From a virus: a stretch of DNA of 24,643 bases. Shown one piece after another: positions 1 to 24,237 of this stretch (position 1 is the stretch's first letter; every line of letters begins with the position of its first letter). Under the pieces are notes generated by a model. The model saw only the letters and a program-made list of their open reading frames with translations. It was not told where the DNA came from and did no database searches. The DNA lies in IMG/VR virus record IMGVR_UViG_3300025163_000014, positions 1 through 24,643 of that record. The stretch is one strand, 5' to 3'. The position numbers and the translations under genes were made by a program.

Positions 1-3000
1 ATGACTAATATGAGGTGTTAAAGAGACATTTATCCGTTTCAGCACAGATTTAGGCAACACATCTTTAAGCCATTCATAAACACTCTTACGAAGTTCTTCA
101 AGGGCTTCAGGGTTTGCTTCACGGATTTGTGGTATAGAATCATCTCTGTGAACCTTTGCATACCGTATATCAGACTGATAAGCCTTCCTTTCCTCTTGCG
201 CTTTATTCCAAATATCGGTTAGCTGTGCTTTGGTTTTAATTGCTTTTGGGGTTAACTCGATGCTAAAACTCGTCCCGTCCCCGTCCCTAACTATCCATTG
301 GTCTTCCGGTATGCCTTGTGACTCGTAAGGGAATTGTTCACGGCGTTGCTTAGTTGTTAATTTGGAACGGGCTGATGTGTCTCTGGCCTCTATTTCCCCG
401 GCAAGGCGATCGTATGAAATATCTGATGTCGCTCCTCCAATTGCAAAACCTTCAATATATTGAATTAAATGCTGTATCTCGTGTAAAAGGGCTTCTCGAT
501 ACCATTTTTGATCGTACATAGAAGGATATTGCTCAGCATTAGGGATGTGTATAATATTGTCCCCGGCTTGCATACCATAACCAGGGTATTCAATGCGGAC
601 ATTCTTTAATTGCGGGTATGCTTTGAATAATAAAGGATGGTCAATTATATCTTCAAGATTAAAATCACCTGCTTTTTGGGCCTTGCGATTAATGCGCCAA
701 AACTTTTTTGTTTGTCTTCGGTATTCTCCTTTTCTATCCTTGTAATATTCTGCCTCTTCTTTTGTGATAAAACCTTTTTGCAAAGCATTCTCAAGGAAAA
801 GGTTTACATATCCAGGGATTTTTATTTTTGCCCCACTATCATCAATCTCAAACTTCCATTTTCCTTCAGCCCCTTTCAGCCAACCGGTTTCCTTCCATAC
901 CTTTTTTTTATCTACACCCTCAGCAAGCATCTTCTGCGCTTTTTGCAGTGCGCCTTTGTCAGCCCCTATGGCTTTTTCCCCTGCCATTTGAAACAGTGGC
1001 ATCCCTTCATTTCCTATGGCCTTCTTCCCTGCCATTTGATTAATCCCCACCCTGTCAGAGGTAATCCCTCTCTCAACATAATGTCGGGCATCTTCAAGTA
1101 TCTGTGTGATTTCATCCATGGACAGCCTTAGGTTGGGGAGGAGACGTCTTGCGAATCTCCTTATAGCTCGCATCACCTTTCTAACCCATTTGGATGTAGG
1201 GTTATTTACGGCTTCCCTGGCAAGCCATTCTTCAGCAGATAAGATTCTCCCTTCTCTGGTATTTGTATCATACTCATAATTATCTGCGACCTTTTGGATT
1301 TCTGCTGGTTTTGCCTCATAGACATCTTCCATGATCTTCTCGAACTCAAGGCCAAGACTCTTTCTCAGACCATGGTGCCCAAACGATTCATGCATAAGAG
1401 CGCGGACAGTATCTTCAATAGAAGCCATATTATCTGCGACTATAATAACTTTGCCGTTATCATACACAGCATCAATAATATCATCTTCCGCAGCACCGCT
1501 TAGGATTCTCTCAGACAATTCAGATTGAGACTGGACAACTTTCACAGGAGGTGCGTTTTTCCATCGGGCAGTAATTTCATCAACTTCGGATTGGAGGTCT
1601 TTTGCTTTGAATTTACCTTTTGCTTCTGCTGTTTTGCGTTTCTTGTATAGGGGCGGCTGTGCTTTAAGCTCTGCGATAGCTCCTTCATAATCATGGCGTG
1701 TCATTTTCTTTGGGTATGGCATCGCAGATTTAAGAGTATTCTGGTCCGCCATAGAACGCCCTCTGTCAATAATATCTAACAAAGCAACTCCATCGCCAAT
1801 CATTAGATGTAAATTCTGCAAGAACTTTTGCCTTGCCCCTCCGAAAACTCTCTTATTTGGGGAATTAAAAATTGTTGCGGATACCCCGGACATATCAAAT
1901 CGAGACACCAACTTAGCCGCAGCTTTTAACGGAGTTTCTCCTTTGGGATATGGTATGAATTCAATAACTTGATGGGCTGTATCCAGTAAAATGAATCCAT
2001 CCTTATATTTATTCCCACTTTTGTTTAAATAAGTTTCTACATCTGCCGAGCTTTGAATCTTTAATCCTGCCCCACGTTTTGTTATCTTGCGCTCTTTAAC
2101 AGGAAGAGAAACTTTCCGTATAGTTGGGCGTATAGGTAAAGCTTTTTTCCCCCTAACATTTGGAGTAAAATCTATATATTTCGTGTCTCCAATTATAAGA
2201 GCGTGTATTTTAATATCATTTAGCTTCAAAAGGCCTTCTATCTTGTCTCTAATTGCATAGTCTGCCGCAGAAGGTTCAGTTCCCCCTGATGGATGATTAT
2301 GGACAAAATAAAAGGATTCTGCTCCAGGCATGGTCAGGACATGGCCAACATACTCAACCGGCCTTAATTGACTTTGATCTATCAGACCTTTGGTATATTT
2401 ATGTATCTCAAGGACTACTCCATCCTTGTCTGTGGTTATGCCATAACAAAACTCTTGCGCTGATTTCCTGATAGAGGCCAAGAGAGCGGCAGCATCTTCA
2501 GTGTTCCGTACTATATTCCCATCTGAGGCGATATAACCTGTTGTGGCCATTCGTATACGAGGTCTTCGTGCTTTGGGTACTGTTTTGGCAGGCCGTGAGA
2601 AATCAAAATTTTGTTGTTCAGATTTAATGTATTGCCGTTTGGGTTTGGATTTGTTCCTTGTGGCCATTCGTTTACGAGGTCTGCGTGTCTTCGATATAGT
2701 TTCGGGGGATTGTGAGAAGTCAAAACTTTGCTGCTCAAACTCAAAGTCTTCCCGCTCGAATTTAAATTCGTCTTTTGCTTCTTTAACGCTAAGTGTGTGA
2801 TATTTAATGTCTCCATCTTTTATCCCTTCTGTCTTGATCTCATCAGCCTCTGAAGAGGGCTCGCCACCCTTTGTGTCCCCGGTATCAGGCTCCCGTCCTT
2901 CACCATGTCGTTCAGCTCCCTTAGAAACTTCTTTTTGTATCCCAGGGACTTCTCTCTGAATGGAGTCTCTGACTGCATCGTAGAATTCTCTTTTTGTATC

Positions 3001-6000
3001 ATCTCTTTCTTGTTTGTTTGTGGCATTAGATAATTTCTCCGCATACTTGTTGATCGTATCGTTAATTGGCCCCGCGTAATTTGCAAGCTTGATAAAAGTG
3101 GAAGCAAGTTGGCCGGCTTCTTCTGACAACTTCCTGTTTTCTTTTGCTTCAATAACATTTCCTGCTTTGCTTAACCTTTCAGCCTCTGCCTCCTTACTTA
3201 CTGTTCCAAACAATTTTTTATCTGATAACAGCTTATTTAAAACATAATCTCTTAACTCTGCTCTTTCAATAAGTAGGGGTCGGGTTTTGATCTCATCACC
3301 AAACAAACTTGTTTGTGTTTTAGTTGTCTTGCCTGCATTTTGAATATCATCAATAATCTGCTCGATAACCCCAACATTAATATTATGCTTTGCCCCTTTC
3401 TTTTTAAGCAAAGCAAGAAGTTCTATCTGAGCGTCAAAATCACCTCTAAGTTTCTCACCAATGGCAATGCCCCAGTTCCTGGGTAACTCGCCTATTTCAA
3501 TTTTATGAAAAATTCCAGGTTCTAAGCCGGCTAATGCCATGCCCTCTTCTGCAACCTTTCCTTTGAGAGATATTCCATGTAACTCACTAATCGTTTCTGG
3601 TGTAATATCGTTTTGCCTGAATATTAAGGCTGCATCTTCAGGGGTACCCTGGTTTTCTGCTATATTGATTAAAGCACCTTTCAACTTTGCTTCTTCAGCA
3701 TTCTTTGCTTCCAAATACCGGACAGTTAAATCTTTCTGCCCTGTCCTTTTTGCGAGCTCATACCTGTGATGACCATTTATAACATAGAGTTTATTATCCG
3801 CAGGGTCTCTCCATACTGAGATTATTCCCCCTAATTCAGGATTATAATGTTTTATGTGTTTAAGTTTTGAACTTACCCCTTTTTCCCCAAGGAACCGTTT
3901 ATACTGGAATCTTGGAGCGTCAATATTTAGATTCTCTATAGACTCTTGGCCTATCCTGTTTGTTGATGGGACTTCTTCTTTGCCTTCAACCGGCATGTTT
4001 TCTTTATCTGTTGATTCGTTGCCAGGATATGGAGTGCCAGTTTCCTCCATTTCTTTATCAATTACTACCAACCGTGTCTTTACACCAGTTTGATTAAACG
4101 CTTCCTTCCCTTTAAAAGCCCCTTCTGGTAATTCTTCAGACCATCCCTTATCTGAAAGCCATTCACGGAAAGCTACTGATTCTTTATCATTTGCAAAGAA
4201 GGCATGTTCGCTCATAATAGCCACAATTCGGCCACCAGGCTTTAATAAATCGTAAGCATGATAAACATGCTTGATATCCTGATTTTTGGAAAATGGAGGA
4301 TTCATAAGAATACGCTCATACTGACCATCTTTGAATTCCAGAAAATCAGAACCAACAATGTTGTGCCCTTTGAGTTCGAGTAATTCTTTCAGTGTTGGAG
4401 ATACTTCAATTACATCCGGTTTAACGTTAGTCTTTTCCTTGATGGTATCGGCAATATCCCCTTTACCGGCTGACGGCTCAAGGACACGCATCCCATCTTC
4501 AATGCCTGCTTCCTCAACCATCCTTTTAATTATTGATTTAGGTGTTGGGAAAAAATCAACTCCAACCTTTTGGCCAATTAATTCTCGCTCTTTAGCTTTT
4601 ATCGGGTCTTCCTTGATTTTGTCGGCACGAATGTCAACCAACTCCTTAATAGCTATTTGAAGACCAGGCGTATCGGTTATTCCCATAGCCTTTAGGCGTT
4701 TAACTTTCTTTAAATTTGCCTCAAGCATCCAGGGTAAATCATCTACAATCCCATATTTTTTGGCAAATCTTACAATTTTTTCGGCAAGCTCTTGTGAAAA
4801 CGTATTTCTGTACCCAATTTCTCTGGAGAGTTTCTTTCCCCCTCTATGCTTTTTAAGCGTATTCTTGAGATTTGGTAGAAAATCAGGATCAATATCTATA
4901 GTTGGATATTTAACCAAATCAATAGATTTAACAGACACCGGATCATTTTTGTGCCGCCGATATTCGGAGGGATCCTTGTATTTATTTCTCAAGTAATCGA
5001 AGCGAACCTTTTCAAGAATGTTATCAAGCATCACAACCTGCGTTTTGTTACGCAAACCAGACAACACTTTTGCCTCACCCCTTTCAATGGCATCAGCAAT
5101 GTTTACCATTGTATCAGCAATTTGAATTTCTTTGGCTGCATCCGCTCTTGCCCTCGCGGCTATCCGTGCCCGCCTTGCAGTATTTTCATTCCTGTCTTGG
5201 TTATATTTAGCTTCTGCCCTTCCCTTAATCCTTTTTGCTGTCCCCCTTAATTTATTTGCAATGATTTGATTTTGTTTGTTCTCTGTTGTAATTCTCTTTT
5301 TAATCTTTGGGGTGGGCTTCGGTTTTCCAACGATCATGGACGGGCTGACGCCTTCTTGAGGCGTTTCTTTTGCCTCAACTTGCTTTGGCGTCTTTGCTTT
5401 TGGTTCTTCTGCGGACATGTTTTGTTCGCTTGTGGGCGGTGCCCCTGGTTTTTTCTTTGCCTCCCTTAACGATTCATCCGTTTCTGGGGGGGCTGATAAA
5501 GCAGAAGCCTCAAGTGGTTCTTCCCCTTGCTCTTTAGTCTGAACAGGAGGTTTTACTTCTTTCTCCCTTGGTTTCTGTTCTTTCTCCCCCCGGGTTTCTC
5601 CCTCCGGGGTTTCCATCCGGTCTTTCTCAACGTCCCGTAAATGTACGCCTTCTTCCTTTTCCCAAGAAGTCCCTTCCTGGCCGCTTGGCGTTTCAATCTT
5701 TCTTCCAGTCTCTTTGGCATCTTGTATTCTCCTTTCTGCTTGAATCCGGGTGTGTTCACTCAGAATATCATTAAGCTCGGATTTTAACGTGGGATATTGA
5801 TCTTTAAGTATATCAATGTGTGCGGTTGTTATGGCCCCGGACAAAAGGTCTTTCCGGATAGCTTTTAAAACTCCTTCACGCTTATTCTCTAACTTCTCAC
5901 TCTCTGAACCACCTGCCTCAACAATTCTTGATATTTCGTCTGCGATTTCAGGAACACCTTTTTTTATCCGCTCAATATCTGTTTCATTAAATAAATTTTG

Positions 6001-7392
6001 AACAAAACCTTTTTGGAAAGCATCAACCGATTCCTGTTTTGTTTCCCCTGCCCCATTTATAATAATGCTGTCTATAAATTCTTTTTTTAGTTTGGCAGCA
6101 GATTTATCATCTCTTTTTTTAATGAAAGGGTGAAGGAATGTTGCAGCTCCACCTCCTCCAACAGCACCCATGATTCCGGCATCTATCAATCTCCTGCCTA
6201 TTTGTTCAGGCGGTGTATGCTCATTTATAATCCCTTCGTCATAGGCGATTTGCATTGCTTCGTTTATAGCTTCCTGTAATCCTTCTGCTGTTGCACTTTT
6301 GAAAACTCTTGTTACAAGTTTCCCACCTTCTTTAGTGAGAATCCCTAACGGGATCATTTCACTTAAAACTTCTGTGGCTGCATAAAATCCCGCTGTTTGC
6401 GCTGACTCTGTTGTGCTTTTCCCTTTTGCTCTTTGTTCATGATATACCTGTCCAAAAACAGAAGGATACATTGCTGCAAGGCCTAACTCTGGGTTTTTAG
6501 TTATTAGAGTCGTTAAAATCCCTGTCCCGAGGCTTGGCAAAACGCCTTCTATTGCACCCGTAGAATAATATAATAATGACCCTGGCTTTACATTAGGACG
6601 TATCCATTCTGCTGCTTTTTTGAATTCTTTTGCATAAGTTCTCCCAGCCGATGCTATTGGTTCTGCAATACTTTTTTCAACCCACGATTTATCACCAAAA
6701 CCTTTCCCTTGTTCTAATAATTCCTGCGCCTTTTTTAATGATTCTCTATCCCCTGTCTTCAAATAATTGTTAATCTGGTTTTTAGCTTCGGACTCTACCT
6801 TGGATGGCAAAAGACCTGCTTTAAGTGGATAAGGGTATATTGTAGAAAAAACTTTTTCGATAATATCAGCGGTTGGGATTTTACCTGTCGCTCTTTTAAG
6901 CACATTTTCCGCTTTCCATACTGCCAGTTCTTTAACTGGGTCAGTGTTCTTTACCCATTTTGTTACATCGCTTACGCCCCCAGCTATATCACTTGCCGCT
7001 GCTTCTGCAAGCTTTCCCCAAGTCCAATGTTTTGGCGTCGGATACGGCTCACGCTCAGTTCCAGGCTTAGGGGCACCTTTCCTCAGTAATGTTAAAAGGG
7101 CATCTTTTACTACTTGCCGCCTTCTTTCGGGAGTTTCACCAAGATATTCTATCCCACCACCAACATTCTCGTTAAGACCTGCTACTGCTGAAAGCCCCGA
7201 TCTGATTAATGCAGGGATAGTTGATGTGTATCCACTTTTATCCCTTTTGCCAATACTCCCTTGATCTGTCTCAAAATTGAAATCATTAAGGTTATATTGT
7301 CTTCTACTCTTTTTCTCGGGGGTGGTTAAAGGAGATTCCTGTCTCTCACTCTTCCCAAGATTGAAGTCATTAAGGTTATATTGTCTTGGCAT
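1..7392 (-). CDS. Giant phage polyvalent protein (MTase, ParB-like, JAB x2, zincin x2), partial at left edge
   Basis: I read this frame through from ATG at 7392 (Shine-Dalgarno-like GGAAAATAAGGG just upstream) to base 1 without a stop, at least 2464 codons; the C-terminus is outside the window. Domains by residue: repeated motif RQYNLNDFN at 3-11 and 31-39; Ala/Gly-rich hydrophobic region about 275-420; acidic, Pro-rich disordered linker about 570-715; basic helical region to 945; adenine-specific DNA methyltransferase about 950-1090 with LEPSAGKG at 971-978 and catalytic NPPF at 1031-1034; ParB/DdrB-like domain about 1170-1330 with NGHHRYE at 1206; two FDFS plus RRPRxRMAT repeats 1553-1617; RadC/JAB domain about 1625-1750 with HNHPSGG at 1698 and D1711; a degenerate JAB-like copy 1785-1878; zincin with HESFGHHG at 2001-2008; a domain resembling large-polyvalent-protein-associated domain 23 with HEIQH at 2304-2308. 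Such proteins are known from phages and conjugative elements as counter-defence multi-enzymes. As the last gene after ejection-type genes it is probably packaged and injected (inference). Confidence 0.9.
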   Translation of the reverse strand, partial: MPRQYNLNDFNLGKSERQESPLTTPEKKSRRQYNLNDFNFETDQGSIGKRDKSGYTSTIPALIRSGLSAVAGLNENVGGGIEYLGETPERRRQVVKDALLTLLRKGAPKPGTEREPYPTPKHWTWGKLAEAAASDIAGGVSDVTKWVKNTDPVKELAVWKAENVLKRATGKIPTADIIEKVFSTIYPYPLKAGLLPSKVESEAKNQINNYLKTGDRESLKKAQELLEQGKGFGDKSWVEKSIAEPIASAGRTYAKEFKKAAEWIRPNVKPGSLLYYSTGAIEGVLPSLGTGILTTLITKNPELGLAAMYPSVFGQVYHEQRAKGKSTTESAQTAGFYAATEVLSEMIPLGILTKEGGKLVTRVFKSATAEGLQEAINEAMQIAYDEGIINEHTPPEQIGRRLIDAGIMGAVGGGGAATFLHPFIKKRDDKSAAKLKKEFIDSIIINGAGETKQESVDAFQKGFVQNLFNETDIERIKKGVPEIADEISRIVEAGGSESEKLENKREGVLKAIRKDLLSGAITTAHIDILKDQYPTLKSELNDILSEHTRIQAERRIQDAKETGRKIETPSGQEGTSWEKEEGVHLRDVEKDRMETPEGETRGEKEQKPREKEVKPPVQTKEQGEEPLEASALSAPPETDESLREAKKKPGAPPTSEQNMSAEEPKAKTPKQVEAKETPQEGVSPSMIVGKPKPTPKIKKRITTENKQNQIIANKLRGTAKRIKGRAEAKYNQDRNENTARRARIAARARADAAKEIQIADTMVNIADAIERGEAKVLSGLRNKTQVVMLDNILEKVRFDYLRNKYKDPSEYRRHKNDPVSVKSIDLVKYPTIDIDPDFLPNLKNTLKKHRGGKKLSREIGYRNTFSQELAEKIVRFAKKYGIVDDLPWMLEANLKKVKRLKAMGITDTPGLQIAIKELVDIRADKIKEDPIKAKERELIGQKVGVDFFPTPKSIIKRMVEEAGIEDGMRVLEPSAGKGDIADTIKEKTNVKPDVIEVSPTLKELLELKGHNIVGSDFLEFKDGQYERILMNPPFSKNQDIKHVYHAYDLLKPGGRIVAIMSEHAFFANDKESVAFREWLSDKGWSEELPEGAFKGKEAFNQTGVKTRLVVIDKEMEETGTPYPGNESTDKENMPVEGKEEVPSTNRIGQESIENLNIDAPRFQYKRFLGEKGVSSKLKHIKHYNPELGGIISVWRDPADNKLYVINGHHRYELAKRTGQKDLTVRYLEAKNAEEAKLKGALINIAENQGTPEDAALIFRQNDITPETISELHGISLKGKVAEEGMALAGLEPGIFHKIEIGELPRNWGIAIGEKLRGDFDAQIELLALLKKKGAKHNINVGVIEQIIDDIQNAGKTTKTQTSLFGDEIKTRPLLIERAELRDYVLNKLLSDKKLFGTVSKEAEAERLSKAGNVIEAKENRKLSEEAGQLASTFIKLANYAGPINDTINKYAEKLSNATNKQERDDTKREFYDAVRDSIQREVPGIQKEVSKGAERHGEGREPDTGDTKGGEPSSEADEIKTEGIKDGDIKYHTLSVKEAKDEFKFEREDFEFEQQSFDFSQSPETISKTRRPRKRMATRNKSKPKRQYIKSEQQNFDFSRPAKTVPKARRPRIRMATTGYIASDGNIVRNTEDAAALLASIRKSAQEFCYGITTDKDGVVLEIHKYTKGLIDQSQLRPVEYVGHVLTMPGAESFYFVHNHPSGGTEPSAADYAIRDKIEGLLKLNDIKIHALIIGDTKYIDFTPNVRGKKALPIRPTIRKVSLPVKERKITKRGAGLKIQSSADVETYLNKSGNKYKDGFILLDTAHQVIEFIPYPKGETPLKAAAKLVSRFDMSGVSATIFNSPNKRVFGGARQKFLQNLHLMIGDGVALLDIIDRGRSMADQNTLKSAMPYPKKMTRHDYEGAIAELKAQPPLYKKRKTAEAKGKFKAKDLQSEVDEITARWKNAPPVKVVQSQSELSERILSGAAEDDIIDAVYDNGKVIIVADNMASIEDTVRALMHESFGHHGLRKSLGLEFEKIMEDVYEAKPAEIQKVADNYEYDTNTREGRILSAEEWLAREAVNNPTSKWVRKVMRAIRRFARRLLPNLRLSMDEITQILEDARHYVERGITSDRVGINQMAGKKAIGNEGMPLFQMAGEKAIGADKGALQKAQKMLAEGVDKKKVWKETGWLKGAEGKWKFEIDDSGAKIKIPGYVNLFLENALQKGFITKEEAEYYKDRKGEYRRQTKKFWRINRKAQKAGDFNLEDIIDHPLLFKAYPQLKNVRIEYPGYGMQAGDNIIHIPNAEQYPSMYDQKWYREALLHEIQHLIQYIEGFAIGGATSDISYDRLAGEIEARDTSARSKLTTKQRREQFPYESQGIPEDQWIVRDGDGTSFSIELTPKAIKTKAQLTDIWNKAQEERKAYQSDIRYAKVHRDDSIPQIREANPEALEELRKSVYEWLKDVLPKSVLKRINVSLTPHISH
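2542..2736 (-). repeat. Duplicated FDFS + RRPRxRMAT motif in the polyvalent protein
   Basis: Two units encode residues 1553-1578 and 1592-1617. Each has E-Q-Q-(S/N)-F-D-F-S, a Ser/Thr/Pro-rich spacer and a basic R-R-P-R-x-R-M-A-T end. They lie immediately before the JAB domain, in a linker rich in Phe and charged residues. The spacing (39 residues) and order are preserved although the spacer residues have diverged. Confidence 0.85.
7277..7387 (-). repeat. Duplicated motif at the N-terminus of the polyvalent protein
   Basis: 27-bp units at 7361-7387 and 7277-7303 differ at one base and are 84 bp (28 codons) apart. Each encodes RQYNLNDFN followed by L or F. The strong nucleotide conservation at the extreme N-terminus suggests a short linear motif used twice, for example as a packaging, docking or cleavage signal (inference). 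Confidence 0.9.
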
Positions 7393-8380: not shown

Positions 8381-9199
8381 TTATTCCAAAAATAGCATTG
8401 CTACCCCTATCACAAACCCTACCACTGCGCCTATCCAACCGCCTATGCATGCCCCTTGAACAGTATAAGAAGCTACGAATAACACTGCTGATACTGCGGA
8501 TCGTCTCTTTTTCTCCTGAGTTTTCCGAAAAGATACACTTCCTCGTAATGTGCCTAAAGCTGCTTGCTCAAATTTTAATGAAGTAAACGGCCATAATGCA
8601 GTTTTGCTTTTAAACCTGTAGTTCCTTTCATCTGTAACTGTCTTCCAAATAAAATATTTTTTCAGAATTATTGCGTATTTAATTACTGTTCCCCTTTGCC
8701 AATTTAATCTGGCTGAGTATTCTTGCCCTATTTCTGGGAGGAACTTAACCTTAGCATTAAGCCTTATCTCGCTAATTGTTTTTATCCTTTTATCTTCTAA
8801 CTTAGCTTTTCCTATAATAAATGAAGAAGTTATAACAGCATTTATATTTCTCATACTAACTTTGAAATCAGCGATTGCACCTTTAACCATCTTTTCATCT
8901 GCAAGTTTTATTTCAGCTTCAACATCCGCATTTATCTCTGAACTTTTTAGCTTGTTCTCAAAAACTGATTTCCACACAATCCCAATATCAAGTCCGGCCA
9001 TAAATTTCCCGAACATATCATAAAGAGATGGGAAGCTACTCAATACATAACCTGTACCAAAGAAAGCAGCATCAACTTCTATTGTTTCATAATCAGGAGC
9101 ATCATCAATAACCCGGTTCGCCACTGTAGTATTAAGAAAATCCCCATGGTGGGCTTCAACATACGGGGCATACCTTGTTATTGCTTTGCTACTACTCAT
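8381..9199 (-). CDS. Paralogous virion protein B with C-terminal membrane segment
   Basis: A 272-residue protein starting at ATG with AAGGAG 9-10 nt upstream. It is a clear paralogue of the next upstream gene. Both share RYAPYVExHHxDFLN near the N-terminus, an identical stretch from IEVDAAFFGTGY to AGLDI, MRxxNAVxxSSFxIGKA in the middle, and LWPFT followed by FExAALG near the C-terminus. The last 40 residues are hydrophobic and Gly/Ala-rich (GACIGGWIGAVVGFVIG), which resembles a transmembrane hairpin or glycine zipper. I do not recognise a named family. The position after neck genes and the membrane-like tail suggest a pore or ejection protein that helps DNA cross the host envelope. That function is inferred. 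Confidence 0.8.
   Translation of the reverse strand: MSSSKAITRYAPYVEAHHGDFLNTTVANRVIDDAPDYETIEVDAAFFGTGYVLSSFPSLYDMFGKFMAGLDIGIVWKSVFENKLKSSEINADVEAEIKLADEKMVKGAIADFKVSMRNINAVITSSFIIGKAKLEDKRIKTISEIRLNAKVKFLPEIGQEYSARLNWQRGTVIKYAIILKKYFIWKTVTDERNYRFKSKTALWPFTSLKFEQAALGTLRGSVSFRKTQEKKRRSAVSAVLFVASYTVQGACIGGWIGAVVGFVIGVAMLFLE
8983..9082 (-). repeat. 100-bp perfect direct repeat, copy 1
   Basis: Bases 8983-9082 are identical to 9902-10001 (offset 919), with mismatches at both flanks. The copy encodes the segment from IEVDAAFFG to MAGLDI, in frame in both paralogues. Identity includes every synonymous position, whereas the flanking coding sequence has clearly diverged. Confidence 0.97.
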
Positions 9200-9212: not shown

Positions 9213-10253
9213 TTAATATGTTAAAGCTGCCCCTACCCCAAGTACTGCACCTATCCCAGCGCCCCAATAGCTGCCTGCTGAGCTTACTGTTTTCACTCCT
9301 ATATTCTCTACCCCCCTCTTAGCCTGATCAGCTAAAACAGGAGTTGTATTCTGAAAAGCGCTCCCAACCATTGAGCCCATTGCAGCTCCGCTCAATGCTC
9401 CACTTATTACCTTAGACACGGTTGAAGCACCGGCGACATCTGTCTTTGAGTTTACTGCTCCCTGAAGTGCCCCTAATGCTGCTCTTTCAAAATCAAGGAT
9501 TGTAAACGGCCATAAACGTTCTTTTACTCTCATTGTATAGTTAATTTCATCTATATCAGTCTTGGCAGAGAAATAAAACTTCATTATTTCAGAATATATA
9601 CCAATAACACCTTTGTTCCATTCAAGGTGTGTTACCCATCTCGATGAGGCAATAGGTATTAAGTCATACTTTAACTTTGCCCTCATCCTGGTTAACGATT
9701 TGACTCTTGCATCTTCAATTATTGCCTTGCCTATAACAAATGAACTACTCATTACAGCATTCATATCTCTCATGCCTGTTTGGAGCCTTGGTATTGCATT
9801 TGCGTTTATGTCGTCATCCATTAAAGCAGACTCAGCAGAAATAAGATCATTCACTATAGGAGAATTTACTGTACTTTCAATCATTTGATCCCATAATGCT
9901 TCAATATCAAGTCCGGCCATAAATTTCCCGAACATATCATAAAGAGATGGGAAGCTACTCAATACATAACCTGTACCAAAGAAAGCAGCATCAACTTCTA
10001 TAAAAGAATAATCTTTAAATGGATTTTCTCTATTTAAAGCTTCATTCCTCTTAACCAGTATCCAATTTAGAAAATCGGCGTGATGTGTTTCTACATAGGG
10101 CGCATACCTTATATAAGTTTTTTGGGTCCCTCCTCCTCCACCACCACCACATTGGCTTATTTCCCCTTCATATTCATATGATTCTGAATATGTTATCTCA
10201 TACCTCTGATTTTCTTCGTTCCATTCACTCTCGGTATAAGTATATATTTTCAC
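9213..10253 (-). CDS. Paralogous virion protein A with poly-Gly linker and glycine-zipper tail
   Basis: A 346-residue protein. The start is GTG at 10253, with GAGGA 7 nt upstream and the previous stop 2 nt before it. It is a longer paralogue of the downstream gene. It has an extra N-terminal module of about 35 residues rich in Glu and Tyr, then seven consecutive glycines (36-42) before the shared YIRYAPYVE block. The middle carries MRDMNAVMSSSFVIGKA. The C-terminal 80 residues contain two Gly/Ala-rich hydrophobic stretches (SGALSGAAMGSMVGSAF and GAGIGAVLGVGAALTY), which look membrane-active. Role as an internal or ejection protein is inferred from order and from the membrane segments; the family name is unknown to me. 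Confidence 0.8.
   Translation of the reverse strand: MKIYTYTESEWNEENQRYEITYSESYEYEGEISQCGGGGGGGTQKTYIRYAPYVETHHADFLNWILVKRNEALNRENPFKDYSFIEVDAAFFGTGYVLSSFPSLYDMFGKFMAGLDIEALWDQMIESTVNSPIVNDLISAESALMDDDINANAIPRLQTGMRDMNAVMSSSFVIGKAIIEDARVKSLTRMRAKLKYDLIPIASSRWVTHLEWNKGVIGIYSEIMKFYFSAKTDIDEINYTMRVKERLWPFTILDFERAALGALQGAVNSKTDVAGASTVSKVISGALSGAAMGSMVGSAFQNTTPVLADQAKRGVENIGVKTVSSAGSYWGAGIGAVLGVGAALTY
9902..10001 (-). repeat. 100-bp perfect direct repeat, copy 2
   Basis: Second copy of the exact repeat described at 8983-9082, here inside the 346-residue paralogue. Same strand, same reading frame. Confidence 0.97.
10128..10150 (-). repeat. GGN trinucleotide tract encoding seven glycines
   Basis: A CCN run on the plus strand gives consecutive GGN glycine codons in the 346-residue gene. 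It sits exactly at the joint between the N-terminal extension and the region shared with its paralogue, so it acts as a flexible linker and may change length by slippage. Confidence 0.8.
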
Positions 10254-12423: not shown

Positions 12424-12864
12424 TTATGCTATTAAAATATTTATATTAGTAATTCTTAACATTTGGCCTTTTGATACGGTTACATCCTCCATAAAATCTA
12501 TATAACTTATTATAGCATCAGTATAATCGTCACCATTAACTATGTCCGTACTATCATTATAAATGATAGCCCCAGATGCAACGAGACTCCCTCCACTTGC
12601 TAACCATTGAACATTATTCCAAGAAAGGGAAGCCTTTCCTGAAGAGACATTAACACTTCTATTTATACCTTTAAGCTGTATCCCCCCCGTAATATAGCCA
12701 TATCCACTTATTAATTCATCCGCTGAAACATCTGCATAGCTTTTATGGATAGTTCCATCAAAATCAAAACCAGCATTCATCAAAATTATATAATATGTAT
12801 GAGATGTTTTGATTTGTCCGTCTAATAACATTCCTTTAGCATAAATTGCTACTTCATTTGCCAT
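12424..12864 (-). CDS. Tandem paralogue 2 of a beta-rich decoration/tail protein
   Basis: A 146-residue protein, ATG at 12864 with CGGAG about 11 nt upstream. It is a diverged paralogue of the gene just upstream. Both share IILMxxGFxF, YADVSxxEL, GxGYI, ISWNN or LSWNN followed by W-x-A-S-G-G-S, an AII block and a C-terminal (V/I)(S/G)YxDF segment. The predicted fold is a compact beta-sandwich. No enzyme motif is visible. A decoration or fibre-associated role is inferred from its place among neck and tail genes. Confidence 0.7.
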   Translation of the reverse strand: MANEVAIYAKGMLLDGQIKTSHTYYIILMNAGFDFDGTIHKSYADVSADELISGYGYITGGIQLKGINRSVNVSSGKASLSWNNVQWLASGGSLVASGAIIYNDSTDIVNGDDYTDAIISYIDFMEDVTVSKGQMLRITNINILIA

Positions 12865-12912: not shown

Positions 12913-13347
12913 TTAAGAAAGCCAGAACTCAATATTAGCTATTGTTGCTATCCCACCATCAGCTTGAGTTTGCGCTTCACCAAAATCAACATAGCCTACA
13001 ATAGCATTAGCCACAGGTGTTGTAATAGTAGAATCAAGAATTATTGCCCCAACAACAGGGCCAATACTCCCGCCACTGGCCGCCCACGAAGCATTATTCC
13101 ACGAAATTTCAGTCCGATTGTCTGTATCATTTTCAGTAACAACTACTCCAGTAAGGACTTTTGTATTTTGGATATATCCATTACCTGTTGGAAGCTCATA
13201 CTCGGATACATCAGCATATCCTTGATGACTGACTCTATTAAAAACGAACCCTTCTGCCATTAAAATAATACGAAATTCATCTGTAGAAAAGTCTATTTTC
13301 TTTGTTACTAACAAAAACATTATTTTATTTGCCAAAGTAGTCGACAT
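12913..13347 (-). CDS. Tandem paralogue 1 of a beta-rich decoration/tail protein
   Basis: A 144-residue protein, ATG at 13347 with CGGAG 7 nt upstream. The diagnostic shared blocks with its downstream neighbour are ILMAEGFVF, YADVSEYELPTGNGY, ISWNNASWAASGGS and VGYVDFGEA. Upstream of these the N-termini differ. It lies directly after the RCC1-like gene. A gene duplication followed by divergence explains the pair; the two copies may occupy different positions in the particle. Function is otherwise unknown. Confidence 0.7.
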   Translation of the reverse strand: MSTTLANKIMFLLVTKKIDFSTDEFRIILMAEGFVFNRVSHQGYADVSEYELPTGNGYIQNTKVLTGVVVTENDTDNRTEISWNNASWAASGGSIGPVVGAIILDSTITTPVANAIVGYVDFGEAQTQADGGIATIANIEFWLS

Positions 13348-13378: not shown

Positions 13379-14689
13379 TTAAAAATGCCCCCAGCTACCA
13401 CCGCTCGGAGGGTCTTCATCTATTACCCAGTAATATTCGTCCTCCCGCTTAACTCCAAAAGTAGACCGATGAGCCCATATATCCAGCCAAAAGTCATCCC
13501 CAAGTTGTTCAAATTCTGTTCTTGCGTCCGTGTCTCCAGTCCCAAACTCACCATGAGAATTTAAACCACACCCCCACAGAGTTCCATCTTCTTTTATCCC
13601 CATAACAGAAGTATCTTTAGAACTAATCTTATCCCATCTTGAACCTGCCAGTTGAACAAAATTAAGCTTATCAGATGTATCAGGAAGTCCCATGATATTG
13701 TTAAGATTGCTTCCAGCGGCCCAAAGAGTTCCATCTCTTTTTATAACAAAGAGAACTCCAGAATACGCATATAAGCCATTATACCCCATACAGATTTCCG
13801 TTACTTCAGCCCCAATGTCTTCAACTTGGGTAAACTCATTCTTGGCTGTCGTATCTCCTAAACCTAACTGGCCATCAGCATTACTCCCTGTAACCCAAAG
13901 CGTTCCATCCATTTTTAATGCAGCAGTAGAATAATATCCACAACTAACTTTATCAATATCACTTACATCAGGGATATAAGTAAATTCATCTGGGCTTCCA
14001 ATAGAACCCATTGAACCTTCATATGAATCCCCTGAACCAAAGATATTTCTATCACTATCCATAGCAATGGAGTAAAAACTTCCACATTCAACACTTATCC
14101 AATTTACAGAATCTCCAACCTGTGTAAAAATATGAACATCATCATGATTTCCAAGTCCAAGTTGGCCATAGTTATTTGATCCTGTAGCCCAAAGCGTTCC
14201 ATCTTTTTTCACAGCCATTGTATGTGTATAATAAGGAGAACAAGCAAAATCTTTCCATAAACCCGGGACTTGTGTCCAAACTTCCCTTGCATCAGTATCA
14301 CCCAAACCAAGACAACCATTTTGGTTACTTCCAACTACCCAAAGAGTACCATCACTTCTTAATGCAAATGAATAGCTTCCTGTATTACCACTTTGAGCTT
14401 TAGTAAAAAACTCACTCTCGCCAGTTTGAGTAAAAGTTGATACAGGACTTGTATTATGTCCAAGTCCAAGTTGATAACTACCATTACTTCCAGCTCCCCA
14501 AAGTGATCCAAATATTACTTTTTTTGGATAAGCACGGCGAATAGACTTATTAAACCAATACCCACAAGGCGTATGAGTTGGTGTTACAGGCTTCGCCCCC
14601 TGAGTTGGACAATCCCATACAGGATTATCACTCGTGGTGATTTTACTGCCCTCGTTATATTTTGTTTTATGTACTTTCCAACTGGTCAT
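13379..14689 (-). CDS. RCC1-type seven-bladed beta-propeller protein
   Basis: A 436-residue protein whose ATG overlaps the previous stop (TAATG). Seven RCC1-like repeats begin near residues 61, 112, 162, 212, 261, 317 and 366. Most follow DGTLWxxGSNxxGQLGLGD; the fourth is the most degenerate (DRNIFGSGDSYEGSMG). Seven repeats suit a closed propeller. The first 60 residues, rich in Pro, Thr and Lys, lie outside the propeller and could anchor it. The C-terminus ends in a Gly/Ser-rich tail. RCC1 repeats are widespread in eukaryotes and also occur in bacterial surface proteins. Within this neck and tail cluster, a surface-exposed binding head such as receptor-binding or tail accessory protein is the best guess. 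No guanine-nucleotide exchange role is implied. Confidence 0.85.
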   Translation of the reverse strand: MTSWKVHKTKYNEGSKITTSDNPVWDCPTQGAKPVTPTHTPCGYWFNKSIRRAYPKKVIFGSLWGAGSNGSYQLGLGHNTSPVSTFTQTGESEFFTKAQSGNTGSYSFALRSDGTLWVVGSNQNGCLGLGDTDAREVWTQVPGLWKDFACSPYYTHTMAVKKDGTLWATGSNNYGQLGLGNHDDVHIFTQVGDSVNWISVECGSFYSIAMDSDRNIFGSGDSYEGSMGSIGSPDEFTYIPDVSDIDKVSCGYYSTAALKMDGTLWVTGSNADGQLGLGDTTAKNEFTQVEDIGAEVTEICMGYNGLYAYSGVLFVIKRDGTLWAAGSNLNNIMGLPDTSDKLNFVQLAGSRWDKISSKDTSVMGIKEDGTLWGCGLNSHGEFGTGDTDARTEFEQLGDDFWLDIWAHRSTFGVKREDEYYWVIDEDPPSGGSWGHF

Positions 14690-17301: not shown

Positions 17302-18279
17302 TTAAGTCGGCTCTGTTAGGTTCTCATGCCTCACGTGCATTTGCCTATTGCTGCAATACAAGTTCCCACGCCATCTGCTATTGGCTGTAATGGTATCAGG
17401 TTGCCCGCCTTCCCTCTTCGCTACCCATTCCGGGGTGGTAAAGTTATAATCCTTATGGGACCTTAAACTCAGGAAGTTAAGGTTAAGGGCATCCAATACA
17501 CCAGAAGAATAATACGGATCAGCTACGATGGGAGCGCCTTTGTGCATAATATTATCCCAACCGGCTTCAACCATGTTCCCTTCTTTGTATCTCTGTTGAG
17601 GATGAAGTGACCTCTCATACCCATCAGCAAGAACCTCCGTGGTACAACAAAAATTCGGTCTTGTCCCAACATATCCACCAAAGCCAGGCTTTCTGAAAAT
17701 CTTCTGCATAACCTCAAAAGATATGGCTTCACTGTCTGTAATAACATTGGCTTTCCACTGCGCCATGTCATCCTCGGCGATAGAACCATATTCCACTGAC
17801 GTACTTGTATTAAACAAATCTCCCAACCCGTTAATACTATCGCTATCTCCGGCGGCAGCAATCACCTGGGAAGCAAGATCAACCCGAAGAGCCTTTTTAA
17901 TATTGCTCATGTACAGTTTTGTCAGTCGGATGATAGCCTCATCCCCGGTATTCTGGGTAAGATCATCCAGGTTAAGGGTGTTGCTTCCGTATGCTCCAGC
18001 CCATCTAAACCTTGCAGCATCGACAATACTTTTCTTCGATTGGTTTATTACTGTATCCTTACCATAGCTGCCATGATTTGAGATGTCGTATTCCAGTGGT
18101 ACTTTCACCATCAATCCACCGTCAACAATCTCGTCTGGTTGTATTTCCCAATTACCTAAACGTATAGCCTTACCCATCAACTTCCAGAGCAAGGCAGAAG
18201 CTTTATTAAGAATATCTTCCGGCTCAGTCTGGAGCCAGTAGTATTCAGTTGTCGCATTTAATTGATTGATTAATCCCAT
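17302..18279 (-). CDS. Major capsid protein
   Basis: A 325-residue protein, ATG at 18279 with AGGAG 10 nt upstream. Position (after scaffold, before small beta-rich genes) and size suit the major coat protein, probably of the HK97 fold. Recognisable blocks include VDAARFRWAGAYG near residue 86, NGLGDLFN near 149, YGSIAEDDMAQWKAN near 163, GAPIVADPYYSSGVLDALN near 252, and a C-terminal GNLYCSNRQMHVRHENL. These are the type of blocks found in capsid proteins of uncultured and environmental tailed phages. No separate protease gene or cleavage site is visible, so maturation probably proceeds without cleavage of a capsid delta domain (inference). Confidence 0.85.
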   Translation of the reverse strand: MGLINQLNATTEYYWLQTEPEDILNKASALLWKLMGKAIRLGNWEIQPDEIVDGGLMVKVPLEYDISNHGSYGKDTVINQSKKSIVDAARFRWAGAYGSNTLNLDDLTQNTGDEAIIRLTKLYMSNIKKALRVDLASQVIAAAGDSDSINGLGDLFNTSTSVEYGSIAEDDMAQWKANVITDSEAISFEVMQKIFRKPGFGGYVGTRPNFCCTTEVLADGYERSLHPQQRYKEGNMVEAGWDNIMHKGAPIVADPYYSSGVLDALNLNFLSLRSHKDYNFTTPEWVAKREGGQPDTITANSRWRGNLYCSNRQMHVRHENLTEPT

Positions 18280-19591: not shown

Positions 19592-21586
19592 TTAAAACTC
19601 ACCTTGTACTTCCGCCGGTGGCATTTGTCCTTGCCCTGACTTCGCTCCAGCAGGTTTAACAGGCCGTATTTGTTGGTTTCCTTGGTTAGTATCCCCTGGC
19701 CCACCTTGTGGTTGCATAAGAAATTGCTTAAGTGTCATCGCCTCTTCTTCAGGCAATCCCGCCTCAATTAAAATCTGTAACGCCTGGTCAATCTCATTTT
19801 CCCCCATCCGTTCCATAATTTTTTTCCAATCGGGGAAATTGATTGTTTCTAACAATGCTCTTCTGTCTATAGCACGTTCTTTGTACAGGGCTTGCGCCAT
19901 TTCCTGATTTTGTAGGCTTGTCCTCGGGGTTGTTGATCCTGCTTCCACAACGTAAGAAAATTTTCTGCCGGCATAACGAGCTCCAATAAACTCAACAGGA
20001 TCGCCGGATACTTCGACTAATTCCGGTTTAATCCCAAAATTTTGCCATAACCCAATCGCCCATCGGCTCCTTTGTTCGACTAAAGAATCAATCGCTGAAG
20101 TCTTGGCCTGCATTAACATCTGATTACGCTCTTGTAATGCAACAATCGCAGATGCCGCAATAACTCCTTTAGGGGCTTGCCCCCTGTCAGCATCTTCAAT
20201 TTGATACACCCTGTCATAAAGCTTGATAATAAGATCCAATACATTAAAAAACGTTGCAGGCAGATTGGGGATTTGCATAAATTCAATCCGAGCATTAGGT
20301 GTTGTAGGCATCAGGATAAGACGCCCAGCTTTTGATATTGTACTCTCTATCATCTCTCTTGAAATTCCGCAATGTTTCTGGACAATCAGCGGAGGAGACA
20401 TAACATTAATCACATAAGCAACCAGCTTGGATACAATACGATTGATCTTTACGACCAGATCACCTACCTGCTCAGCAGCCGCAAAACCCCATATTGTAAC
20501 AAGATCACGATAACTATTAGCCGCGTAAACAGGGAAACGACCCCATGGATGAGTTTGTGACGCCAGGGATATTTCTAAGGCAGGATTAATATTCGGGTTC
20601 GGGGAATCATCAAGAACCATATACCCGCTTCTATCTTTTGATTTCTGCCCTGGTTTTCTTGCTGTAATCGTTATTTTTCTTACCCCATCAGGATAAACTG
20701 ATTCTTCCCGGGTACTTTGTTCGATTATAGGATTTCCCCCCTCATCTGCCAAAGGGAAGCCATTATCATCAAATATAGGGGCACTTTCCTTTATTATCTT
20801 TGTTCGATTATCTCTAACCCAAACTTCTATTATCAAGCATCTCTCAACTTTTTTATCAGATGATACCATGCCTGAATCCTTTACCCTGGCCATAGAGTCT
20901 TTATAATTACCAATCCTATTTTTTGTCGCTTCGTAATTATCGGCTTTGTATTTTTCTCTTTCTGTCCCTAAAAGTTCATATGCCTCATCGGGAGCAACAC
21001 CGGTAACGCCAAACTCTTTTTCAATCTTATCTACAAAATCAAGATAAGCAAAACAAACATAAGGGGGCTCAGTTCCAAGATCATCATAATACCCTGGCGC
21101 AGGGAAGAAAGCAAAAGGGTCTGTAAGCATAATATTCGGTTGTTTTTGTTCTTTATCCCAATACGGTTTCTCTGTTGTAATGCCATAAATTTCCATTGTT
21201 CTGGCTGACAAACGGGTTTTGCCTTGTTGATTGGTATCTTTCCACCACTTTTTAAGTTTTGTGGTAAAGATTTCTTCTGCCCCATCCTCAATACCGTCCA
21301 GGTCCACAACCTCGCCGGTAGGATTTCGAGCTGTGATATTAGATACAGTCCTTTCAATGTTGGCAAAATAAAGATTAACAGGGGTCTGTGCTTTATTTAT
21401 AACTGGCGTCCCAGCCATTTGCCTGCCACGGTAAAGGGCATAATTTGTCAGAAAATCCGCAGGCTTATTCAACCTCTCTTTTTCGATTCGTGCAATCTCG
21501 AAAAGACTAAAAGCGAACTCCGCTACATCTTTATCCCCTTTTGGAGGAATATTTGTTAAATTCCATTTGTCATTAAATTTAGGCAT
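19592..21586 (-). CDS. Portal protein (P22-like)
   Basis: I place the start at ATG 21586 (664 residues), which has GGGG 4-6 nt upstream and overlaps the preceding stop as ATGCCTAA; an ATG at 21604 has no ribosome site. The protein opens with a helical segment including FLTNYALYRGRQMAGTPV and the portal-like NIERTVSNITARNPTG. A beta-rich part follows (LTDPFAFFPAPGYYDDLG). A conserved helical core includes AAEQVGDLVVKINRIVSKLVAYV and RGQAPKGVIAASAIVALQERNQ, a stem or channel-helix pattern. The C-terminus is Gln/Gly/Pro-rich. Size and layout match large portals of P22-like phages. It forms the dodecameric ring that the terminase docks on and the adaptor completes. Confidence 0.85.
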   Translation of the reverse strand: MPKFNDKWNLTNIPPKGDKDVAEFAFSLFEIARIEKERLNKPADFLTNYALYRGRQMAGTPVINKAQTPVNLYFANIERTVSNITARNPTGEVVDLDGIEDGAEEIFTTKLKKWWKDTNQQGKTRLSARTMEIYGITTEKPYWDKEQKQPNIMLTDPFAFFPAPGYYDDLGTEPPYVCFAYLDFVDKIEKEFGVTGVAPDEAYELLGTEREKYKADNYEATKNRIGNYKDSMARVKDSGMVSSDKKVERCLIIEVWVRDNRTKIIKESAPIFDDNGFPLADEGGNPIIEQSTREESVYPDGVRKITITARKPGQKSKDRSGYMVLDDSPNPNINPALEISLASQTHPWGRFPVYAANSYRDLVTIWGFAAAEQVGDLVVKINRIVSKLVAYVINVMSPPLIVQKHCGISREMIESTISKAGRLILMPTTPNARIEFMQIPNLPATFFNVLDLIIKLYDRVYQIEDADRGQAPKGVIAASAIVALQERNQMLMQAKTSAIDSLVEQRSRWAIGLWQNFGIKPELVEVSGDPVEFIGARYAGRKFSYVVEAGSTTPRTSLQNQEMAQALYKERAIDRRALLETINFPDWKKIMERMGENEIDQALQILIEAGLPEEEAMTLKQFLMQPQGGPGDTNQGNQQIRPVKPAGAKSGQGQMPPAEVQGEF

Positions 21587-21986
21587 TCTTCCCCTTTCGA
21601 ACATGAGTTTTCATATGCCGGGAAAGAGATGATTGGTGATTATATTCTTTCCCGCATTTTGGACAACGAAACAACAGTTTCTCAGGCATTTCACTATCTG
21701 TCTCTTTTTCTACAGGAGAGTCTTCTTTTTTAATCTCTTGTTTTATGCCCCGTACCACTTGCAACCGACCAGCAGGGGCTAAAGGGGCCTCACAACATGG
21801 GCATTGCATATCGCTTGCCATAATTTCGCTCCCGCCATTTCTGTAATCTCCAAACTTCCCCCATCCCCATGATTTCCATGGTTCTAAAAGTTCAACCATA
21901 GCGCCATTTGCCCGGATATCAGGATCATAAGCATCTGTAGTTTTATGGCAAATCTTTTTACAGTTTGGGCATTGGACTTCAGGCAT
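21579..21986 (-). CDS. Zinc-binding protein with a canonical C2H2 finger
   Basis: A 135-residue protein, ATG at 21986 after a G-run ribosome site (GGGGGGAG). It has CPNC at 6-9 and CPCC at 62-65, which could together form a split zinc ribbon. The linker at 85-100 is acidic. A C-terminal finger spans F106 to H128: C108-x2-C111-x12-H124-x3-H128, with Y115 and L121 at the hydrophobic positions. It is an exact fit to the TFIIIA-type C2H2 consensus. The last residues are basic (VRKGKNA). The gene overlaps its neighbours on both sides. A DNA- or RNA-contacting role near portal and terminase is possible but inferred. Confidence 0.8.
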   Translation of the reverse strand: MPEVQCPNCKKICHKTTDAYDPDIRANGAMVELLEPWKSWGWGKFGDYRNGGSEIMASDMQCPCCEAPLAPAGRLQVVRGIKQEIKKEDSPVEKETDSEMPEKLLFRCPKCGKEYNHQSSLSRHMKTHVRKGKNA

Positions 21987-22260: not shown

Positions 22261-23018
22261 TATATAGTTTCCTCGACTTTAAAAACATTGCTCTTTACAT
22301 TATCCATCCACATACACCTGCTTAGCATCGTATGGATAAGACCACCAGCAGCCAGTACAGCAGGGTCATCACGATGGAAATTCCTGAGTCTTTCTTTCAG
22401 TATATCACACTTGCCAAAATAAAACCTGATTTTCCCTGGAACCAAACATGTACGTATTGATCTAACATAATTATCAAAAATTGAAGGAGAATAAAAATCA
22501 TCAGGGGGAGTGATTAAAATTGCATTATGATCACCTTTACCTCTGATTAAACGTTCATTGTAAAGGGCAAGTGTTGTCATAAATCGTTCAGGATCCCCTA
22601 ACCATACAGTTAAAAGATTTGGCTGTATCCCAAAACCATACCTCTCTCTCATTTTAACGCATTCGTCTAACAATAATGGTACATGAGGACTCTGCACCTC
22701 ATCTAACAACAGAAACTTGGCGTCTTGTGTATCACAATGGTCATCTTTGCCTAATTCCTTCGGCTTGACTACCCCAACAATAGCGGCGTATCCTGGCATA
22801 CCAATATCATTCTCTTTGACTTCGGACGGCCATCCAATACAAGCATAAAGGTCATGATAAAGATAACCTCGATAAAAATCGTCATCTCTTATATCCTCGT
22901 ACCAAAAAGGTCTTTCAACTAATGGCTGTTTAGTTATATGAGCATGATCTTTCCTTGCCTGCCATAATTCCGGCGCATAAGGATGAGATATAAATTTAAT
23001 TACACATGGTTCAGGCAT
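22260..23018 (-). CDS. Conserved-looking protein after terminase, function unknown
   Basis: I place the start at ATG 23018 (252 residues, MPEPCVIKF), as it has GAGG 9 nt upstream and overlaps the large-terminase stop as ATGCCTGA; an ATG at 23048 lies within the terminase gene and has no site. The protein is mixed alpha/beta and includes RPFWYEDIRDDDFYRGYLYHD, GYAAIVGVVKP, FLLLDEVQSPHVPLLLDE, LTVWLGDPERFM, ILITPPDDFYSPSIF and FYFGKCDILKERL. I see no nucleotide-binding loop or nuclease motif that I trust. The tight coupling to terminase suggests a packaging or head-assembly helper. Function is unknown. Confidence 0.7.
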   Translation of the reverse strand: MPEPCVIKFISHPYAPELWQARKDHAHITKQPLVERPFWYEDIRDDDFYRGYLYHDLYACIGWPSEVKENDIGMPGYAAIVGVVKPKELGKDDHCDTQDAKFLLLDEVQSPHVPLLLDECVKMRERYGFGIQPNLLTVWLGDPERFMTTLALYNERLIRGKGDHNAILITPPDDFYSPSIFDNYVRSIRTCLVPGKIRFYFGKCDILKERLRNFHRDDPAVLAAGGLIHTMLSRCMWMDNVKSNVFKVEETI

Positions 23019-24237
23019 TCGGGAAATCCTCATAAATACAGTCATCAAAAAAATTGGATTGCTTTATAATCCCTGACAGTGCATATCTGAGCGCATCAAT
23101 ACAGTGATTATGTTTATCTTCGATCAATGGCAAAATATCATTAGTTTGTTTATCAATCTTGTACGAATAAAGTCTGAACTCCTCCGCTGTGTGTTTACAC
23201 CTTTCGTGGATTACGATCCTGTCGAACCCTTTGATAACAGCAATACCGTCCTCTATGCTGCCATGCCATTTAGGCGCTGCCTCGCAGTTAATTCCTCTGC
23301 GGCGCAAATGACTGATTGTTTCGGGGCGTGAATTATCTGCTTTAATAGGCCATTTATCTACCCCAGGGACTCGTTTTGTAAGATAATCAACGATATCATC
23401 CAGTTCGATGCCAATTCCCCATGCCTCATTGTCTATATACAGAATGTTATTTTGAATAAAACACCTGATTAACGCCAAAGGGTCTTGAGAAAAACCAAAA
23501 TCTAACCCATAATAAAACCTTGTCTCAGGTATAGGGGCGTCAAACGTGCTAATTTCGAATTTGCCTCTAAAAATAACGGCATCGCTAATTTGCCTGCAAA
23601 ACCCTTCCCATACATGCTGATACGCTTCAGGGTCTGTTTTGAGCATATACAGTCTTTCTTTGTCCAATACATCAGGGAAAAATGGATTATCCTGCCATCC
23701 AACTTTTTCTATAATTGAATTGGGAGGAGTATTTACAATAAACCTTTGATAAGTGGGGTCATTTTCTTCCTGGGGGTTAAAACTAATCCAAATTTCAGAG
23801 TTTTCGCTCCGGATTGTAGGGATCAATATCTCCCACGAATTTTCCGATATTGTTTGAGCTTCCTCAACCCAACAGATGTCTATACCCTCGGTCGATTTTA
23901 TTTCCTGTATTGACCTCTGGAGCCCCTTAAAAATAAACTGTGCGCCTGCTTTCGAAGTAATTTCCGTGCGTGTAACATTAAACCAGTCTGACAATCCCAT
24001 ACTATTGATTTTATCAACCAATAACCTATGCACCGAATCGGCAATTGAACTTTGAAACTCTCTGGTGCATAAGATACGCAAACCCTCGCAATATGCCTTT
24101 GCTATCAATGCCATTGCAAAAGAGTTACTTTTAGCGCCACCTCGACCTCCGTAATAAACCTTATAACGGGCAGGCATAAATAACCCATCAAACTTTTCAG
24201 GAAGTTCGATTAGGATTTCTTTTTTTGCTTTTCCCAA
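23011..24237 (-). CDS. terL: Terminase large subunit (PBSX-type)
   Basis: A 408-residue ATPase-nuclease that cuts phage DNA and pumps it into the capsid through the portal. Walker A is GGRGGAKS at 30-37. Walker B is IDICWVEEA at 119-127, with E125/E126 as the catalytic acid. The nuclease half carries YGLDFGFSQDP (D246), KADNSRPETI (D301) and NHCIDALRYAL (D381), a set of acidic residues as expected for an RNase H-type nuclease. The order and spacing match the PBSX/Terminase_3 family. The start is TTG at 24237 with AAGG 7 nt upstream and a 41-nt overlap with the small-subunit gene, so the two subunits are probably co-translated. Confidence 0.95.
   Translation of the reverse strand: MGKAKKEILIELPEKFDGLFMPARYKVYYGGRGGAKSNSFAMALIAKAYCEGLRILCTREFQSSIADSVHRLLVDKINSMGLSDWFNVTRTEITSKAGAQFIFKGLQRSIQEIKSTEGIDICWVEEAQTISENSWEILIPTIRSENSEIWISFNPQEENDPTYQRFIVNTPPNSIIEKVGWQDNPFFPDVLDKERLYMLKTDPEAYQHVWEGFCRQISDAVIFRGKFEISTFDAPIPETRFYYGLDFGFSQDPLALIRCFIQNNILYIDNEAWGIGIELDDIVDYLTKRVPGVDKWPIKADNSRPETISHLRRRGINCEAAPKWHGSIEDGIAVIKGFDRIVIHERCKHTAEEFRLYSYKIDKQTNDILPLIEDKHNHCIDALRYALSGIIKQSNFFDDCIYEDFPNA

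Follow-up and report, generated by a model that had tools for sequence, protein, structure and literature searches.

The giant protein encoded at the left end of the window, the stretch of 24,643 bp analysed here and the whole of its virus record, is probably a phage-type polyvalent protein that is produced late, incorporated into the head and ejected with the DNA into the next host, where its domains would be at work. Its frame is free of stops on the minus strand from 7392 down to 1 and runs off the left edge of the contig after 2464 codons, in agreement with the frame of at least that length claimed by a sequence-only reading of the same DNA, and the missing C-terminus lies beyond that edge. 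From the N- to the C-terminus, domain calls from Pfam and PHROG family models, motifs, homology and a structure model give an adenine methyltransferase of the TaqI/EcoKI type, a ParB-like domain specific to phages, RadC, a second JAB-like domain (JAB2), a zincin (HExxxH), LPD23, a further zincin (HExxH) and the probable start of a third (Table 1). All five motifs named by the earlier reading are present at the residues given there: NPPF at 1031, NGHHRYE at 1206, HNHPSGG at 1698, HESFGHH at 2001 and HEIQH at 2304.

Table 1. Features of the giant protein gene and of the neighbouring late genes in the window.
Feature	Residues	Position	Strand	Remarks
Giant polyvalent protein gene		1..7392	-	ATG at 7392; open to contig end, 2464 codons
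Gly/Ala-rich, mildly hydrophobic stretch	270-430	6103..6585	-	Weak as membrane segments
Highly charged, probably disordered linker	505-700	5293..5880	-	Start common to relatives G6 and G69
Gamma-class N6-adenine DNA methyltransferase core	944-1118	4039..4563	-	FFPTP, EPSAGKG, NPPF at 1031
ParB-like domain (putative)	1153-1513	2854..3936	-	Invariant NGHHR at 1206; viral contigs
Imperfect tandem duplication, 114-nt, 73%		2541..2771	-	Linker leading into RadC domain
RadC/JAB domain	1626-1743	2164..2517	-	Complete JAMM motif, HNHPSGG at 1698
Second JAB-like domain (JAB2)	1782-1880	1753..2049	-	bb-a-b-a-b in model; without HxHP
Zincin-like metallopeptidase 1	1930-2109	1066..1605	-	HExxxH (HESFGH, 2001), Glu 2054/2055
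LPD23 (large polyvalent protein associated domain 23)	2135-2190	823..990	-	Pfam E=2.9e-19
Zincin-like metallopeptidase 2	2245-2385	238..660	-	HEIQH (2304), GEIEAR (2332)
Start of probable third zincin	2418-2464	1..141	-	Ends at contig edge
Gene directly upstream of giant gene, 311 aa		7433..8368	-	Function unassigned
Late protein, one of two paralogues		8381..9199	-	Gly-rich hydrophobic C-terminus; 46% identity to 9213-10253
Late protein, second of two paralogues		9213..10253	-	Gly-rich hydrophobic end; 46% identity to 8381-9199
Major capsid protein (MCP)		17302..18279	-	59% identical to MetMV
Portal protein		19592..21604	-	58% identical to MetMV
Terminase large subunit		23011..24237	-	Without the intein found in relatives

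Phage-type polyvalent proteins were defined as a class by Iyer et al. in 2017 (PMC5512222), and the features that place the protein among them are at least two biochemically unrelated domains, an LPD together with zincins, and a gene that stands alongside the portal and terminase virion genes and closes the structural region. With the proteins described there it shares unrelated enzymatic domains, zincin MPTases including the HEXXXH form, an adenine methyltransferase, an LPD and a late context by portal and terminase, while it differs in that the available part shows no helicase next to the methyltransferase, in the presence of RadC in a phage and in giving no DdrB-ParB match. The genes upstream, all on the same strand, encode terminase, portal, MCP, an SU10-adaptor-like protein, an RCC1-type propeller, a fibre and the two paralogues, whose relationship had already been recognised from the sequence. 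The RCC1-type beta-propeller protein (13379-14689) stands among tail or fibre genes, and a separate pair of tandem paralogues with 39% identity (12424-12864 and 12913-13347; phrog_644) is located in the late region with function unassigned. Intein-like inserts ending in HN are carried by the terminases at L010 1301-3511, G6 (L084-L086) 38631-40820 and L089 7994-10291, placed at the nuclease motif (HNHC/CDAIRYAL) in L010 and G6 and earlier, before TVGIAIF, in MetMV.

The adenine methyltransferase claimed from the sequence is upheld, with residues 703-1149 matching a DNA methyltransferase PHROG (E 1.5e-122) and the motifs of the core intact. An associated helical region precedes the core from residue 703, and the TP motif and NPP(F/Y) of the gamma class, described for polyvalent proteins in PMC5512222, are found as FFPTP and NPPF. 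Among solved structures the methyltransferase profile matches TaqI (E=0.003), and the Pfam methyltransferase match is sub-threshold. In polyvalent proteins a SWI2/SNF2 helicase is nearly always found beside the methyltransferase (PMC5512222), whereas in the 2464 available residues there is no Pfam match to such a helicase and no Walker A, and the C-terminal neighbour is the ParB-like domain rather than the fused helicase of the DarB-type methylase-helicase dyad. Towards the N-terminus, the membrane-like regions of the earlier reading reduce to two Gly-rich stretches (279-297 and 402-420) with a mean hydropathy of 1.3-1.4, which are not strong membrane segments; parts of residues 270-430 match methylase-bearing giant proteins of Vibrio phages. 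An N-terminal motif, RQYNLNDFN, is duplicated at 7269-7387, and the N-terminus of G67 has a comparable doubled motif (YEPVDYDPF/YEPVEYNPF-like). The duplications at 2541-2771 and 7269-7387 could be candidate packaging signals.

For the ParB-like domain, the motif and a PHROG match are in keeping with the earlier claim, and neither of the two ParB family models tried, Pfam ParB_N and ddrB-ParB, recognises it. The ParB/sulfiredoxin superfamily is marked by a GHxR active-site motif in a ParB fold. NGHHR is invariant across 16 viral sequences and residues 1153-1479 match the tail end of phrog_21, with a single weak HTH_ParB match; Pfam ParB_N gave no match to the domain, the ddrB-ParB family model gave none at E<=10 in the window or five relatives, and neither solved ParB structures, by profile, nor 72,556 plasmids yielded one. 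The domain, recognised by motif and PHROG only, is accordingly described as putative. Two labels were rejected: 'DdrB-type', given the outcome with the ddrB-ParB model, and 'portal', the annotation of PHROG_21, as only the C-terminal end of this 1362-position family is matched and the contig has its own portal gene.

RadC is matched by Pfam at residues 1629-1742 (E=1.3e-14), with the JAMM residues H87, H89, S97 and D100 (A8 numbering) invariant in 15 sequences. In a structure model of RadC, JAB2 and zincin 1 (residues 1612-2109; 15 sequences, mean pLDDT 79.6), the first 138 residues superpose on RadC 2qlc with Z 17.0 over 120 residues, whereas the same region reaches only Z 8.4 with the JAMM deubiquitinase JAMM1 of P. 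furiosus and about 7.4 with Rpn11. A task 'deubiquitinase- or RadC-like' had been proposed; the RadC half of this is supported, and the deubiquitinase half is disfavoured because the model fits RadC far better than it does any of the JAMM deubiquitinases compared. JAB2 recurs after RadC in relatives and, in the model, follows a secondary-structure order resembling the RadC core with the HxHP motif absent; a profile comparison with RadC is weak (E=0.05, a single pair, in register), and an origin of JAB2 as a duplicated RadC is suggestive only. With regard to RadC in general, one passage of PMC5512222 confines it to conjugative elements and another reports it in prophages.

The two zincin motifs are not chance occurrences. 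Zincin 1 aligns with HELTHSGL...EEWL of MetMV and HEVFGHYG of G68, the downstream Glu helix included, and in its model HESFGH falls within a single helix and Glu 2054/2055 within the following one, in the order of three strands, HE-helix and Glu-helix that is reported, along with the HEXXXH form, for polyvalent MPTases (PMC5512222). In zincin 2, HEIQH and the downstream GExEAR are invariant in L274, L296 and H66. Both regions match PHROG families of giant proteins, and the Pfam MPTase-PolyVal model gave no match to either; the LPD23-zincin 2 region has no profile match among solved structures, and its structure model (three sequences, mean pLDDT 44) is too poor for use. The last 44 aa of the available chain are 50% identical to G69, where HELFH follows, and a third zincin resembling the one in G69 is likely to lie beyond the left edge, probably followed by an LPD38-type C-terminus by analogy with MetMV and G53.

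In every relative with enough sequence (n=8), the strand that carries the MCP gene also carries a giant frame of 2.5-4.6k aa, a long way downstream of that gene, with lengths of 2580 aa in G6, 3002 in MetMV, 4580 in G41, 3468 in G43, 2801 in G53, at least 3456 in G54, 3365 in G56 and 3492 in G62. The domain sets differ among them (ART-PolyVal, RadC, LPD1, LPD5, LPD38), with Pfam RadC present in G6, G53, G56 and G62. The same order of ParB-like domain, RadC and JAB2 is found in two IMG/VR proteins, L213/G56 (3365 aa) and L214 (3694 aa), at 40% and 33% identity; the former shares ParB-RadC-JAB2 with the giant protein at E 1e-160, and the latter continues into zincin 1, as the giant protein does, at E 1e-132. 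Neither has an adjoining methyltransferase; a zeta-toxin-like kinase stands in front in L214, and an ART-PolyVal domain comes after in G56. H66 has the methyltransferase and then LPD23-zincin 2, in L274 ParB precedes LPD23-zincin 2 and then RadC, and in L216 ParB precedes the methyltransferase. Since the blocks are joined in differing orders in these five proteins, they are independent, reused modules. Two of the relatives' genes call for separate mention. The 3002-aa 'hypothetical protein' of MetMV (AZF89913; L089/L090 33685-42693) contains a zincin and LPD38 and had gone unrecognised as a polyvalent protein, and the giant frame of G6 (L084 10531-19157) ends inside an intein-like insert in its LPD38 region, with the next frame carrying on LPD38-like sequence, as in a split or interrupted gene.

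The fusion of several domains in a metagenome contig, in a frame that stops at the contig edge, could in principle be an artefact of assembly or annotation in which separate genes have been run together. The chance of this is slight in the extreme, as the 2464 codons are stop-free, and the independent contigs in which adjoining domain pairs are likewise fused (G56, L214 and H66) largely refute it.

The host of the lineage appears to be bacterial. In a portal scan, the genomes were mostly deltaproteobacterial/Syntrophaceae MAGs, with one Cloacimonadota and one Methanoperedens MAG. In one deltaproteobacterial MAG contig (G062:C57, 188,783 bp; L192, L193, L205-L212), a syntenic relative of about 62 kb (95957-158162) is present as a prophage integrated at tRNA-Lys, flanked by a direct repeat made up of two 46-bp copies of the tRNA 3' end (95957 and 158117). 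Beside the right copy, at 157052-158050, is a frame which by eye resembles a tyrosine integrase, and apparent housekeeping genes of bacteria, also read by eye from the sequence, are situated on both sides of the prophage. It follows that this lineage has bacterial hosts. That casts doubt on the Methanosarcina host published for MetMV (MK170447), an in silico assignment from CRISPR matches to four unrelated genera together with correlation of abundance and tetramers (PMC7164591). An archaeal host for the window phage, considered in view of its 58-59% MCP and portal identity to MetMV, is disfavoured by the bacterial prophage and the mostly deltaproteobacterial MAGs; for some members of the lineage an archaeal host is possible.

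Packaging finds its strongest support, by homology only, in the F116-like Pseudomonas phages. Gp60 of H66 (3.8k aa) has residues 699-1126 and 2134-2368 in common with the giant protein, in order, and according to its record it has a methyltransferase-like domain and was verified in the virion by mass spectrometry; the gp60 note is incomplete, and that of the neighbouring gp64 supplies the whole wording, 'as part of the virion'. H66 gp60, phiC725A_54 and F116 p59-p60 share with the giant protein the methyltransferase and its helical preamble (35-48% identity) followed by LPD23 and zincin 2, and are likewise encoded last among the virion-type genes, ahead of holin and lysozyme, gp60 directly preceding a holin, a GH24 lysozyme and a spanin. 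The arrangement differs in that H66 passes directly from methyltransferase to LPD23-zincin 2, where the giant protein has about 1,000 residues (ParB-like domain, RadC, JAB2 and zincin 1) in between, and in that H66 ends in PLxRFG, while the C-terminus of the giant protein is beyond the contig edge. The phiC725A paper (PMC5217972) states that this very large protein has been described as structural in H66, and likens the family to injected N4-type internal virion proteins. P1 DarB/DdrB are alike in concept, being a head-packaged methyltransferase (DarB) and a ParB/zincin protein (DdrB) that protect injected DNA, but are two separate proteins, as against a single chain with no DdrB-ParB model match and no helicase found.

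On this analogy the presence of the giant protein in the virion is well supported, so that the earlier suggestion of an injected particle protein stands as far as packaging is concerned, through H66 gp60; the injection of this protein itself, its self-cleavage and the target of each domain are what we infer. In a tailed bacteriophage, probably a temperate one, the protein would be made late, taken up into the head and ejected with the DNA into the next host, in which its two or three zincins would probably cleave the chain into separate functional units. The methyltransferase would then mark adenines in the DNA as it arrives, so as to shield it from restriction, and nucleic acid or nucleotides would be what the ParB-like/RadC/JAB2 block acts on. 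Against this explanation it must be weighed that the protein is known only from one metagenomic contig with its C-terminus missing, that H66 is a distant phage whose protein shares no more than roughly a quarter of the chain, that the helicase companion of the methyltransferase is absent from the 2464 residues and that the zincin 2 model is poor.

Two other accounts of a late giant protein have to be set beside injection of working enzymes. One holds that it is packaged but is essentially a structural ejection protein of the internal or ejectosome type, like the N4-type giants, with enzymatic domains that are incidental or partly dead. Giant ejected proteins do form a DNA-ejectosome in N4-like phages (PMC12633501), zincin 1 of L214 reads EEILH and so has lost its motif, as some copies have, and JAB2 is without HxHP; but the methyltransferase motifs, the JAMM residues, HExxxH with its Glu and HEIQH with GEIEAR are all intact in the giant protein, and this account is unlikely. 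It is still less probable that the protein stays unpackaged and acts in the producing cell, for example in head maturation, in the exclusion of superinfecting phages or in proteolysis during assembly, a role in which zincins could serve. The place between structural and lysis genes in relatives would fit any late function, whereas mass spectrometry records the H66 homologue in the virion, and an adenine methyltransferase and RadC are without an obvious assembly role.

As to the possibility of a new architecture, raised by the sequence-only reading, the protein is not a categorically new class, polyvalent proteins having been known since 2017; each has its own domain order, and a new order therefore makes a new member of the class. 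Two points are less expected: that RadC occurs in proteins of the phage type, and that the ParB-like-RadC-JAB2 block recurs. With the zincin present in some members, this block spans about 950 residues and has so far been found only in phage giant proteins. A speculative proposal, to which we give a rather low likelihood, is that it is a dedicated, injected nucleic-acid-processing cassette. The JAB pair, one half catalytic and the other not, would make up a nuclease or a machine that cleaves nucleotides; the ParB-like domain would load this machine and the neighbouring zincin would release it, and its task upon entry would be to remove a defence signal or to process the ends of DNA.

The analysis adds a previously unannotated phage lineage, the published MetMV included, in which a polyvalent protein occupies a fixed place and its domains are swapped between relatives. 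RadC is placed firmly in phage-type polyvalent proteins, the ParB-like-RadC-JAB2-zincin block becomes testable, and the record of a homologue in virions by mass spectrometry makes the idea of injection concrete.
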